The notes beneath the pieces are model-generated. The model had not been told where the DNA came from. It was given only the letters and a program-made list of their open reading frames with translations, and searched no databases. From Oxalobacteraceae bacterium CAVE-383 (lineage in GTDB: Bacteria; Pseudomonadota; Gammaproteobacteria; Burkholderiales; Burkholderiaceae_D), in contig REGP01000001.1 in the NCBI GenBank assembly GCA_004134995.1, positions 62,001 to 126,000 of the forward strand: 64,000 bases of DNA. Direction: 5' to 3'. Made by a program: the position numbers and the translations under genes. Of this stretch, positions 6,403 through 9,865 are shown piece by piece. Each line of letters starts with the position of its first letter. The stretch's first letter is position 1.

Positions 6403-7862
6403 TGAAACCATTCGAACCCAATATGAGCGCGCTCGGCGCGGCCCGCGATATCCTGCTGACGCCGTTCGGGCTGGATGAGTCGACGCTGGTCAAGACCCTC
6501 GGCAGCATGTTCAGCCACAAGGTGGATTACGCGGACTTGTATTTCCAGTTCACCAAGAGCGAAGGCTGGAGCCTGGAAGAAGGCATCGTCAAGACCGGCA
6601 GTTTTTCGATCGACCAGGGCGTCGGCGTGCGCGCTATCTCGGGCGACAAGACCGCTTTTTCCTATTCCGATGAAATTTCCGAGCGCGCATTGCTGGAAGC
6701 CGCCGCGGCCACGCGCACCATCGCGCGCCAGGGCAACGGCAAGGTCAAGGTCGCCGGCGGCATGCAGCAAAGCGGCGGCCGTTCACTGTATCTGCCGCAC
6801 GATCCGCTGGTGTCGCTGGACGCCACCGAAAAGGTCAAACTGCTGGAGCGCGTCGAAAAAATCGCCCGCGCCAAGGATCCGCGCGTGGTGCAGGTGATGG
6901 CAGGCCTGGCCGGCGAATACGATGTGGTGCTGGTGGCGCGCAGCGACGGCGTGATCGCCGCCGACATCCGCCCGCTGGTGCGGGTATCGGTCACCGTGAT
7001 CGCCGAACAGAACGGCCGGCGCGAGATGGGCAGCAGCGGCGGCGGCGGGCGTTACAGCTACGCTTACTTCACCGACGCGCTGCTGGAAAAATACGCATCC
7101 GAAGCGGTCGCTTCGGCGCTGGTCAACCTGGAAGCGCGGCCCGCGCCGGCCGGTCCGATGACGGTGGTATTGGGTTCGGGCTGGCCCGGCATCCTGCTGC
7201 ATGAAGCCATCGGCCATGGCCTGGAAGGCGATTTCAACCGCAAGGGTTCCAGTACGTTTGCCGGCCGCATCGGCCAGCGCGTCGCCGCCAAGGGCGTCAC
7301 CGTGGTCGACGACGGCACCATCGCCGATCGCCGCGGTTCGCTCAACATCGACGACGAAGGCAATCCAACCCAGTGCACCACGCTGATCGAGGACGGCATC
7401 CTGAAAGGCTATATCCAGGACACCATGAATGCGCGCCTGATGAAGATGCCGGTGACCGGCAACGCGCGGCGCGAATCGTTCGCGCATCTGCCGATGCCGC
7501 GCATGACCAATACCTATATGCTCAACGGCGATCGCGATCCGGCCGAAATCATCGCGTCGGTCAAGAACGGTTTGTACGCGGTCAATTTCGGCGGCGGCCA
7601 GGTCGACATTACCAACGGCAAGTTCGTGTTTTCGGCCAGCGAAGCCTATATGATCGAGGACGGCAAGGTCACTTATCCGGTCAAGGGCGCCACGCTGATC
7701 GGCAACGGGCCGGATGTGCTGAACCGGGTGTCGATGATCGGCAACGACATGAAACTCGATCCGGGCGTCGGCGTTTGCGGCAAGGAAGGCCAGAGCGTGC
7801 CGGTCGGGGTCGGCCAGCCTACGCTGCGCATCGACGGCGTGACCGTCGGCGGCACGGCATAG
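6402..7862 (+). CDS. tldD: Metalloprotease TldD
   Basis: Zinc metalloprotease subunit of the TldD/TldE (PmbA) complex, which degrades unfolded peptides and matures microcin-type peptides or the CcdA antitoxin in enterobacteria. It has 486 aa, the usual length. The metal-binding HExxxH motif is HEAIGH at residues 267-272, within the conserved [19 protein letters not shown] segment. The ATG overlaps the nitrilase stop (TAATG) and is preceded by AGGA. No tldE/pmbA partner gene lies in this window. Identification is very secure. Confidence 0.95.
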
Positions 7863-7874
7863 GCGGATGCGGCG

Positions 7875-7891
7875 GCGGAATCGCATTCCGC
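7875..7891 (+). terminator. Weak hairpin after tldD
   Basis: A 7-bp stem with a 3-base loop (GCGGAAT-CGC-ATTCCGC) stands 12 bases after the tldD stop. A T-run follows only about 9 bases later, so it is a weak intrinsic terminator at best. It immediately abuts the proposed aroG leader promoter. Confidence 0.35.
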
Positions 7892-7920
7892 TTGCCAAAT
7901 TTTTCTATTTGAGGCAATAT
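7892..7920 (+). promoter_or_regulatory. Putative sigma-70 promoter of the aroG leader
   Basis: TTGCCA at 7892-7897 (5 of 6 to the -35 consensus), a 17-base spacer, and CAATAT at 7915-7920 (3 of 6 to the -10). Predicted start of transcription is near 7927, about 24 bases before the leader peptide ATG. The -10 is poor, so this is only a reasonable candidate. Confidence 0.45.
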
Positions 7921-7950
7921 TCCCCATCCTTTAAGGGTTATTAACGAATT

Positions 7951-8034
7951 ATGTCCTTCGCAAACGCTTACTTTTTCTTTTTTTACTTTAGCTATTCCAG
8001 CCCCAAGGCGGTGAAAAGCGGTAAGCGTTCGTAA
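7951..8034 (+). CDS. Phe/Tyr-rich leader peptide of aroG
   Basis: A 27-codon reading frame (ATG 7951, TAA 8032-8034) with six Phe and three Tyr. Residues 7-15 read YFFFFYFSY, eight aromatics in nine codons. An AAGGG precedes the ATG by 13 bases, slightly long for a ribosome binding site. It lies between the proposed promoter and a strong terminator just upstream of the gene for DAHP synthase, the first enzyme of aromatic amino acid synthesis. Codon content and position are those of attenuator leader peptides such as PheL. The peptide itself would have no function; its translation senses charged tRNA-Phe and tRNA-Tyr. Too short for ordinary gene finders. Confidence 0.85.
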   Translation: MSFANAYFFFFYFSYSSPKAVKSGKRS

Positions 8035-8069
8035 GCAGAATTCGAAACCAAATTTTCAAAGAAACCGCC
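7963..8069 (+). promoter_or_regulatory. Attenuator: pause hairpin and antiterminator arms of the aroG leader
   Basis: Two alternative pairings overlap the leader peptide. Segment 1 (AACGCTTAC, 7963-7971) is exactly complementary over 9 bases to segment 2 (GTAAGCGTT, 8021-8029); segment 1 contains the first Tyr codon. GGCGGT at 8007-8012, just past the Phe/Tyr codons, is complementary to ACCGCC at 8064-8069, the 5' arm of the terminator; GCGGT at 8018-8022 could pair there too. Inferred mechanism: a ribosome stalled on Phe/Tyr codons covers segment 1 and leaves the GGCGGT arm free to sequester the terminator arm, allowing aroG transcription. With ample charged tRNA the ribosome proceeds to the stop and the terminator forms. 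Confidence 0.7.
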
Positions 8070-8088
8070 AGTGATGGCGGTTTTTTTT
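8063..8088 (+). terminator. Intrinsic terminator (attenuator) before aroG
   Basis: Perfect 8-bp stem AACCGCCA/TGGCGGTT (8063-8070 with 8075-8082), GTGA loop, followed by an unbroken run of T to 8088. It sits after the leader peptide stop and only 22 bases before the aroG ATG, so it must be read through for aroG expression. It could also end tldD transcripts. Confidence 0.88.
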
Positions 8089-8110
8089 ATTCCAATCCAG
8101 GAGAACAACA

Positions 8111-9181
8111 ATGCCGCGCACCGATGACCTTCGCATAAAAGAAATGAAAGAACTGACGCCCCCATCGCATTTGATCCGCGAATTCGAAGTCTCCGAAGCG
8201 GTGGAGAACACCACCGTGGCGTGCCGCACCGCGCTGCACCGCATCCTGCACGGCCAGGACGACCGCCTGATGGTGGTGATCGGCCCATGCTCGATCCACG
8301 ACCCGAAAGCCGCGATGGAATATGCGCGCAAGCTGCTGGTCGAGCGCGAACGCCTGAAGGACGATCTGGAAATCGTGATGCGCGTATATTTCGAAAAGCC
8401 GCGCACCACGGTGGGCTGGAAGGGCCTGATCAACGATCCGTACATGGACAACAGTTTCCGCATCAACGACGGCCTGCGCCTGGCGCGCGAACTGCTGCTC
8501 AACATCAACCAGCTGGGCCTGCCCGCCGGCACCGAATTCCTGGACGTGATCAGCCCGCAGTACATCGCCGACCTGATCAGCTGGGGCGCGATCGGCGCCC
8601 GCACCACCGAATCGCAGATCCATCGCGAACTGGCGTCCGGCCTGTCGTGCCCGGTCGGCTTCAAGAACGGCACCGACGGCAATGTCCGCATCGCGGTCGA
8701 CGCCATCAAGGCCGCATCGCAGCCGCATCACTTCCTGTCGGTGACCAAGGGCGGCCATTCGGCGATCGTATCGACCAACGGCAACGAAGACTGCCATATC
8801 ATCCTGCGCGGCGGCAGCAAGGCGCCGAACTTCGACGCCGCCAGCGTGGAAGCCGCATGCAAGGACATCGCCGGCGCCGGCCTGGCCTCGCGTTTGATGA
8901 TCGACGCGTCGCATGCCAACAGCTCGAAGAATCCGGCCAACCAGATTCCGGTCTGCGCCGATATCGCCGGCCAGGTCGCGGGCGGCGACGACCGCATCAT
9001 CGGCGTCATGGTGGAATCGCATCTGGTGGCCGGCCGCCAGGATCTGGTGCCGGGCAAGGAACTGGTCTACGGCCAGTCGGTGACCGATGGCTGCATCAGC
9101 TGGGATGAGAGCCTGGGTGTATTGCAGGGATTGGCCGATGCGGTCAAGCAGCGGCGTCTGGCTGCCGCACGCAACGCATAA
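8111..9181 (+). CDS. aroG: 3-deoxy-7-phosphoheptulonate (DAHP) synthase, class I
   Basis: Condenses phosphoenolpyruvate and erythrose 4-phosphate, the committed step of the shikimate pathway, in the cytoplasm. The 356-aa protein matches the AroF/AroG/AroH class in length and carries IGPCSIHDPKAAMEYA, KPRTTVGWKGLINDP and the C-terminal IMVESHL signature. The ATG follows AGGAG by 8 bases. Whether it is the Phe- or Tyr-sensitive isoenzyme is not decided by eye, but the upstream leader peptide contains both Phe and Tyr codons, which suggests control by both amino acids at the level of transcription termination. Confidence 0.95.
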   Translation: MPRTDDLRIKEMKELTPPSHLIREFEVSEAVENTTVACRTALHRILHGQDDRLMVVIGPCSIHDPKAAMEYARKLLVERERLKDDLEIVMRVYFEKPRTTVGWKGLINDPYMDNSFRINDGLRLARELLLNINQLGLPAGTEFLDVISPQYIADLISWGAIGARTTESQIHRELASGLSCPVGFKNGTDGNVRIAVDAIKAASQPHHFLSVTKGGHSAIVSTNGNEDCHIILRGGSKAPNFDAASVEAACKDIAGAGLASRLMIDASHANSSKNPANQIPVCADIAGQVAGGDDRIIGVMVESHLVAGRQDLVPGKELVYGQSVTDGCISWDESLGVLQGLADAVKQRRLAAARNA

Positions 9182-9209
9182 AGGCACTGCCCCGCGCGAA
9201 CCGAAGTAG

Positions 9210-9317
9210 TCAGTCGGGGCGAGGCCGGGTGTTGTGCGCAGTGAGGTAAAGGGGGAGCCGGCCGCAGGCCGGCGGAGGACACGAACGGAGTACAACGCCC
9301 GGCCTCGCCCCGACTGA
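9210..9317. repeat. Long inverted repeat with nested hairpin (REP/BIME-like element)
   Basis: Two 26-base arms (9210-9235 and 9292-9317) are complementary at all but one position, and that one would be a G-U wobble in RNA. Between them, a second perfect hairpin (GCCGGCC-GCA-GGCCGGC, 9257-9273) gives a three-branched fold. It lies between aroG and the convergent yajQ. There is no T-run, so it is not a simple terminator. It resembles extragenic palindromic elements, but no second copy is visible in this window. Confidence 0.7.
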
Positions 9318-9338
9318 CGGCACCGGCGCGGACGGGTT

Positions 9339-9368
9339 GTTCAACAGGTACTTGTTCAGCAGGTACTT
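9339..9368. repeat. 15-bp tandem duplication
   Basis: GTTCAACAGGTACTT at 9339-9353 is followed directly by GTTCAGCAGGTACTT at 9354-9368, one mismatch. It lies between the large inverted repeat and the end of yajQ. No function is apparent. Confidence 0.8.
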
Positions 9369-9379
9369 GGCGGATTGTA

Positions 9380-9865
9380 TTAATCCCGAAAATTATTGAA
9401 TTCCAGCGGCAGGTCTTCGACCTTGCTGCGCAGCATGGCCATGGCGGCCTGCAGATCGTCGCGCTTGGCGCCGGTCACGCGCACGGCGTCGCCCTGGATG
9501 CTGGCTTGCACTTTCATCTTGCTGTCCTTGATGACGCGCACAATCTTCTTGGCGTCTTCGGTCTCGATGCCGTTCTTGACCTTGATCACCTGCTTGACCT
9601 TGTCGCCGCCGATTTTCTCGATCTTGCCGATATCCAGGAAGCGCACGTCCACATTGCGCTTGACCATTTTTCCGGTCAGCACGTCCCGCACCTGGCCGAG
9701 CTGGAATTCGGAATCGGCATAGGCGGTCAGCTCGCGCTCCTTCTGCTCGACGCGCGCGTCGCTGCCCTTGAAATCGAAACGGGTGGTGATTTCCTTGTTG
9801 GCCTGGTCGACTGCATTCTTGACTTCGACGATATTGGCTTCGGAGACGGTATCGAATGATGGCAT
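9380..9865 (-). CDS. yajQ: YajQ-family nucleotide-binding protein
   Basis: A 161-aa UPF0234/DUF520 protein, the family's normal length. Xanthomonas members bind cyclic di-GMP and act as regulators; E. coli YajQ binds nucleotides, so signalling is possible but not proven here. The sequence begins [21 protein letters not shown] and ends with [10 protein letters not shown], both characteristic. An in-frame ATG seven codons earlier (9886) is rejected because AAGGAAA sits 7 bases before the 9865 ATG. It is divergent from murB and convergent with aroG across the repeat element. Confidence 0.92.

Follow-up and report, generated by a model that had tools for sequence, protein, structure and literature searches.

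The aroG locus

The window is the whole 64,000 nt stretch that was analyzed (Oxalobacteraceae bacterium CAVE-383, contig REGP01000001.1, positions 62,001–126,000). In the window, tldD and aroG lie in the same orientation, with a small open reading frame and a terminator between them. The features are as follows, with the basis of each in parentheses.

6465–7862, + strand: tldD, the upstream gene, given as context (NF008006, 677.6 bits, scanned at 6465–7859)
7892–7921, + strand: candidate sigma-70 promoter, TTGCCA, 18 nt, AATATT (9 of 12 positions match the consensus)
7951–8034, + strand: putative leader peptide open reading frame, 27 codons, MSFANAYFFFFYFSYSSPKAVKSGKRS (sequence; relatives)
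7963–7971, + strand: 5′ arm of a predicted protector hairpin, partner 8021–8029, not kept family-wide (sequence, folding)
7969–7995, + strand: putative regulatory codon tract YFFFFYFSY, Phe or Tyr in eight of nine codons (sequence; codon columns of relatives)
8007–8012, + strand: GGCGGU, predicted 5′ arm of the antiterminator, inside the leader open reading frame, core GGCGG (folding, relatives)
8013–8017, + strand: GAAAA, predicted antiterminator extension, partner 8053–8057 (folding model)
8021–8029, + strand: 3′ arm of the predicted protector hairpin (sequence, folding)
8053–8057, + strand: UUUUC, predicted antiterminator extension arm (folding model)
8062–8088, + strand: predicted intrinsic terminator, stem 8062–8070/8075–8083, U-tract 8081–8088 (T8) (sequence, folding)
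8111–9181, + strand: aroG, DAHP synthase, 356 aa, the putative regulated gene (NCBIfam and PDB matches)

The aroG protein (P0001) passes the NCBIfam equivalog NF006723 (AroG) with 584.5 bits, where the cut-off is 568. In the PDB it best matches DAHP synthases, including one named phenylalanine-regulated (1gg1). An AGGAG sequence is located at 8099–8103, after the terminator and before aroG.

Downstream of aroG, positions 9191–9336 display an imperfect inverted repeat with 52 nt arms that are 77% complementary. The core of approximately 92 nt has at least 42 matches in the genome, two of which are its own inverted arms (40 of 109 candidates were scored). This is a dispersed REP-like element, where REP-like is a label given here.

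A first reading of the window from sequence only (the sequence-only reading) had claimed a 27-codon open reading frame with eight Phe/Tyr codons in nine before aroG, and this is present at 7951–8034. Codons 7969–7995 are TAC TTT TTC TTT TTT TAC TTT AGC TAT. It is the only open reading frame of 12–60 codons in the window with at least six Phe/Tyr in nine codons, and 100 windows simulated with a first-order Markov model contained no such frame of that size. As for the candidate promoter at 7892–7921, one promoter-like site was found where 0.7 are expected by chance. A loose −35/−10 pattern is seen upstream of the leader in 15 of 22 relatives, a count without a chance control.

Folding of the leader

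AACGCTTAC (7963–7971) is the exact reverse complement of GTAAGCGTT (8021–8029), and ACCGCC (8064–8069) is complementary to GGCGGT (8007–8012). Positions 8064–8069 are shared, i.e. the 5′ arm of the terminator is also the 3′ arm of the antiterminator. The terminator ends 22 nt before the aroG ATG (8111). A strong intrinsic terminator at this distance had been proposed from the sequence; folding does form it at 8062–8088, while a simple terminator scan did not list it. The 7930–8110 sequence folds better than all of 200 shuffles (z = −3.5).

In the ribosome-free model the 7963–7971:8021–8029 pairing (P 0.85 to 1.0) and the terminator both form. When the ribosome-free transcript ends in the terminator loop, the antiterminator has P 0.0. 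When the RNA of such a transcript is masked up to position 7995, the antiterminator 8007–8012:8064–8069 forms; five of its six core pairs have P 0.99 and the other has P 0.54. GGCGGUGAAAA (8007–8017) is then paired with ACCGCC (8064–8069) and with UUUUC (8053–8057), and there is an extra GGU:ACC pairing at 8020–8022:8047–8049. A stall modelled at each of the eight aromatic codons of the window gives the antiterminator with P of at least 0.98. Folding thus yields the alternation that the sequence-only reading expected, i.e. protector and terminator without the mask, antiterminator with it.

Inclusion of the terminator 3′ arm changes the outcome: the complete terminator then beats the antiterminator at equilibrium. 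Thus the switch must act during transcription, with the polymerase still in the leader. Known attenuators likewise take the decision at this stage.

Conservation in Oxalobacteraceae and Burkholderiaceae

The leader was compared at 110 aroG loci, which are the most similar and not a random sample: 30 loci (the window's own included) and the best 80 of at least 591 matches. The 80 loci are from Oxalobacteraceae (Herbaspirillum, Collimonas, Massilia, Janthinobacterium and others) and Burkholderiaceae (Paraburkholderia, Caballeronia and others), and some are from MAGs without a genus. Removal of four duplicates (L034, L035, L036 and L038) leaves 106 distinct loci, including that of the window (L001); near-duplicates were kept. 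Locus L018 was missed by the terminator pattern and was handled separately for modelling.

Among these most similar loci, 104 of 106, window included, display the aromatic tract, GGCGG and the terminator. The aromatic codons and the paired arms are therefore kept in relatives, which is where the sequence-only reading had suggested looking for them. The leader was not found at the other two of the 106 loci, L054 (an Oxalobacteraceae MAG) and L105 (Undibacterium sp. TS12). At L054, aroG starts a few tens of bases after a tldD-like end.

The leader peptides are of two types. Oxalobacteraceae-type peptides have the sequence ...FYFYFSYSSPxAVEKR, or terminate as AVE-stop, or, as in the window, have AVKSGKRS. 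Burkholderiaceae-type peptides are roughly MSAKFYFYFFW(H/Y)LxPLADREG; they are found at L073, L076–L081, L083–L085, L087–L100, L102, L103 and L106–L110. The proposed sensing of Phe and Tyr fits the codons of the window and of Oxalobacteraceae. It is incomplete for Burkholderiaceae, where 26 of 31 leaders have a Trp codon directed after the FYFYFF-type tract. The codon content suggests that Burkholderiaceae-type leaders sense all three aromatic amino acids.

In all 104 leaders GGCGG is located after the tract and 44–77 nt before the CCGCC-type arm. Alignments were made from these leaders (A1, 57 sequences; A2, 31; A3, 43). In the 57-sequence alignment GGCGG is invariant and the CCGCC of the terminator arm is nearly so.

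Codon and RNA constraint

Tract positions vary between TTT and TTC, between TAT and TAC, and among Phe, Tyr, Trp and His. The tract or the N-terminal region differs in length by whole codons at L001, L031, L042 and L077. By comparison with the same loci's aroG genes, codon usage is reversed: Phe is encoded by 368 TTT and 107 TTC in the leaders, and by 560 TTC and 110 TTT in aroG. Frameshifts of 1 or 2 nt in or after the tract change the C-terminus, and GGCGG is kept. These are seen in the KSGKRS clade (one base lost relative to AVEKR), in L037 and L065 (1–2 nt changes just before GGCGG) and in L076 and L096 (a 1 nt change after five aromatic codons). The peptide of the Massilia type stops after AVE, and here too GGCGG stays. 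Judged by these patterns of change, the tract is constrained as codons, and downstream of it the constraint changes to RNA.

Among the 102 leaders with an ATG-start open reading frame, 68 have no Shine-Dalgarno match of at least 3 nt. The title of a paper by Morbach et al. from 2000 reportedly concerns C. glutamicum ilvBNC and a leader peptide that is formed although a ribosome binding site is missing; going by that title, a missing Shine-Dalgarno sequence need not exclude translation of a leader.

Pairings were counted over alignment A1 (57 sequences). In the terminator 97.4% of cells are paired, and 3 of 11 pairs show changes on both sides. The inner protector helices, nearer GGCGG, have 92.0% and 88.8% of their cells paired. 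The 7963–7971:8021–8029 pairing was rejected as a general protector, with 60.6% of cells paired across the 57 sequences. The two alternative pairings of the sequence-only reading are thus both exact in the window and both formed in the models, but the first is not a family-wide protector.

The antiterminator is paired in 99.7% of A1 cells, through invariance rather than covariation. RNAalifold on the GGCGG-to-CCGCC stretch gave the nearly invariant core helix only, and here covariation speaks neither for nor against the antiterminator. At the order level (see below) the bases just outside the core, 5′ of GGCGG and 3′ of CCGCC, form the combinations T/A 12, C/G 6, T/G 1, C/A 2, A/G 2 and C/T 1 (n = 24). 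The bases that flank the core tend to change together (Fisher p = 0.003 on 21 T/C by A/G cases, uncorrected for relatedness). The 21 cases are from 26 order-level leaders; L125 and L182, which are without GGCGG, and three leaders with other letters were omitted.

Geometry and switching models

The stall models place the ribosome edge, by assumption, 13 nt downstream of the first nucleotide in the A-site codon, and where a leader has more than one GGCGG they use the first. In all 104 leaders the last aromatic codon begins 14–24 nt before GGCGG, and in 51 of them exactly 14 nt before it. Thus a ribosome with the last aromatic codon in its A site would end about where GGCGG begins. With the stall modelled at that codon, P for the antiterminator is greater than 0.8 in 104 of 104 leaders. 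Without the mask it is less than 0.2 in 74 of them. When all aromatic codons are taken, 656 of 716 give P above 0.8, and in 84 leaders this is true of every codon. The remaining 60 codons are earlier aromatic codons of 20 leaders, many of the Massilia/Janthinobacterium type.

The two leader types differ in the unmasked model. The 73 Oxalobacteraceae-type leaders have a mean antiterminator P of 0.09 in the native sequence and 0.44 with the 5′ part shuffled, and the native value is lower in 71. The means for the 31 Burkholderiaceae-type leaders are 0.52 native and 0.31 shuffled, and the native value is lower in 11. A protector that sequesters the antiterminator has support from folding in the window and in the Oxalobacteraceae type, and none from these values in the Burkholderiaceae type. 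Under the assumed footprint, a ribosome at the stop codon would cover GGCGG in 56 of 104 leaders, the window not among them (25 nt away). In the Burkholderiaceae type, according to this model, the stop-codon ribosome may instead be what covers GGCGG.

Distribution in the family and order

A covariance model (R1) gave 89 matches in 86 of 97 genomes of the window's family. These include 84 matches located 17–118 nt upstream of a listed DAHP synthase and two further matches that precede an aroG cut by a contig end, thus 86 of 89 are before aroG. The remaining three (29–34 bits) are without an aromatic peptide in the stretch examined, and the presence of the same leader before other genes was rejected.

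Nine listed DAHP synthase places have no R1 match upstream. Two of these (G036 and G029) nonetheless have clear leaders, and three (G043, G074 and G050) have weaker aromatic peptides, with 4, 4 and 5 aromatic codons of 9, together with a terminator. One (G035) is cut by the contig and its terminator sequence is visible. Another (G034:C18) is a more distant copy in a genome whose C55 copy has the leader. In G009 and G013 no leader was found upstream of DAHP synthase.

Across the order, 120 genomes were sampled and 93 of them have a DAHP synthase match. The upstream regions analyzed were 88 from 78 genomes (28 returned and 60 fetched), and this sample includes a minority of the weaker matches, those with an identity of about 50%. 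The criterion was an ATG open reading frame with at least four Phe/Tyr/Trp in nine codons, together with a CCG(C/T)C...GGCGG-T terminator. An aromatic leader and CCGCC-type terminator are found by it at 26 of the 88 loci, in 13 of 33 families; at the other 62 it found no leader. In 25 of the 26 leaders there are at least five Phe/Tyr/Trp in nine codons.

Regulatory genes and catalogued families

A protein search of the window's genome, which is 98.97% complete, found one DAHP synthase, and no type II DAHP synthase was found in it. Searches of this genome for TrpR (PF01371) and for the TyrR-type HTH (TIGR04381) gave no matches, with the E. coli control positive.

In the same genome trpE (L212, reverse strand, G000:C5) is preceded by a 28-codon open reading frame, MFLDKKQAVQPSAAPGAWLWRRWQTWLN, with four Trp in nine codons. 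This is probably a Trp attenuator. The pheA gene (L214) was considered as a second target of the aroG kind and rejected; no small open reading frame with at least five Phe/Tyr/Trp in nine codons was found upstream of it. With a Phe/Tyr-rich frame before aroG and none before pheA, Phe/Tyr sensing appears, by its sequence, to sit at the common first step of the pathway.

In Rfam no family reaches its gathering score at 7000–9500 of the window. There are weak matches over most of the leader to RF00512 Leu_leader (31.8 bits, gathering 50) and RF01859 Phe_leader (23.2 bits, E 0.74, gathering 55). The seven matches listed for 15 relatives (E up to 1) are all below gathering, and neither Phe_leader nor Leu_leader is among them. 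NCBIfam lists nothing for four leader peptides.

Proposed mechanism and alternatives

The element before aroG is very probably a ribosome-mediated transcription attenuator of the trp/phe type. This logic had been proposed from the sequence and is backed by the conservation of codons and pairings, the geometry, the switching in silico and the association with aroG. We infer the transcription start, translation of the leader, stalling, the premature 3′ end and the response to amino acids as follows. RNA polymerase would start upstream of 7951 and a ribosome would begin the leader peptide. With charged Phe-tRNA and Tyr-tRNA available, the ribosome would pass the tract and leave. The protector hairpin (7963–7971:8021–8029 and the inner stem) would then sequester GGCGGU, the terminator at 8062–8088 would form and aroG would not be transcribed. 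With Phe or Tyr scarce, the ribosome would stall on one of the eight codons with its leading edge short of 8007. This would disrupt the protector and allow GGCGGU to pair with the ACCGCC of the terminator 5′ arm; the terminator could not form and aroG would be expressed. The leader most likely lets the bacterium switch on its first aromatic-synthesis enzyme when Phe or Tyr is short.

The same RNA switch could also follow from nascent-peptide arrest of the TnaC kind, where an aromatic peptide stalls the ribosome on free Phe or Tyr. The tract is hydrophobic and conserved, and in the model stalling by either route frees GGCGG. However, arrest peptides usually depend on particular residues close to the P site, and here the leaders differ in how many F, Y, W and H residues they have and in which order, while the C-terminus is lineage-dependent and frameshifted in several leaders. 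Peptide arrest is thus quite improbable. A switch that answers another signal (a riboswitch ligand or a protein), with the open reading frame untranslated, would accord with the 68 leaders that display no Shine-Dalgarno match. It would leave the codon-wise conservation and the whole-codon length changes of the tract unaccounted for, and neither a TrpR nor a TyrR-type HTH was found in the genome nor any Rfam family at gathering in the window region or among the matches listed for the 15 relatives. This explanation is less probable again than peptide arrest.

The terminator might merely end tldD transcription, the aromatic open reading frame being incidental, as tldD is located upstream on the same strand. 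But the terminator is past the candidate promoter and so close to aroG that it would block aroG unless regulated. In addition, peptide and terminator are kept together at nearly all of the 106 loci and GGCGG does not vary in the 57-sequence alignment. Of the explanations considered this has the smallest chance of being correct. The attenuator of the trp/phe type remains the preferred reading for the window.

Through DAHP synthase carbon is committed to the synthesis of every aromatic amino acid, and in E. coli, according to textbooks, its transcription is controlled by TyrR and TrpR. On balance we lean, with some reserve, to the wider proposal that a single uncatalogued attenuator of DAHP synthase, inherited from an ancestor, is common to many Burkholderiales and takes the place of the enterobacterial TyrR/TrpR. 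As an OR gate, it would respond when any one aromatic aminoacyl-tRNA runs short: that for Phe or Tyr in Oxalobacteraceae, and also that for Trp in most Burkholderiaceae. The codon set and the protection of GGCGG, by a protector hairpin or by a stop-codon ribosome, would be tuned by lineage. A cis-acting RNA appears to do the job of TyrR/TrpR in many Burkholderiales families, so that regulation of their aromatic synthesis would be predictable from sequence and testable by one reporter. The leader family could enter Rfam and small open reading frame annotation. Its natural frameshifts and lineage-specific codon sets are a clean set for the study of attenuator evolution.

Relation to known systems

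The pheA and trp attenuators consist of a leader open reading frame, an antiterminator and a terminator. The window leader resembles those of E. coli pheA (pheL) and trp (trpL) in having end-product codons in the leader open reading frame, an antiterminator that shares the terminator 5′ arm, and a terminator before the gene. Unlike these, it would control the first common step (DAHP synthase) and not a terminal branch, and would read Phe and Tyr together, most Burkholderiaceae leaders also reading Trp. pheL and trpL are described in the available text of PMC11802643.

The open PMC literature gave no recognised report of a Burkholderiales aroG attenuator, which is weak evidence of absence as subscription papers mostly fall outside that scope. 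An aroR/aroF attenuator in C. glutamicum is reportedly the subject of Neshat et al. 2014. In the text available from PMC11802643, PMC7356990 and PMC4046766, AroR is a leader peptide with Phe-Tyr-Phe upstream of the DAHP synthase gene aroF, and there is read-through upon stalling under Phe limitation. By these descriptions, the likeness is that of an aromatic leader peptide before a DAHP synthase gene. The C. glutamicum system is from an actinobacterium and is described with a short FYF tract, whereas the present one is from Burkholderiales with eight aromatic codons in nine.

A second likeness is to the uORFC-13-1 motif upstream of aroF in Acholeplasma, a computational prediction in the accessible part of PMC8632094. 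As described there, a Phe-coding uORF adjoins a terminator upstream of DAHP synthase. It differs in its reported occurrence, which in the same text is limited to Acholeplasma and environmental sequences, and in its description as having one or more Phe codons.

The sequence-only reading had considered attenuation of aroG in this lineage a distinct solution. Attenuation itself is supported, but C. glutamicum aroR/aroF and the predicted Acholeplasma aroF motif are precedents. The Burkholderiales family, matched by neither Rfam nor NCBIfam, is of a kind already known from Corynebacterium aroR/aroF.
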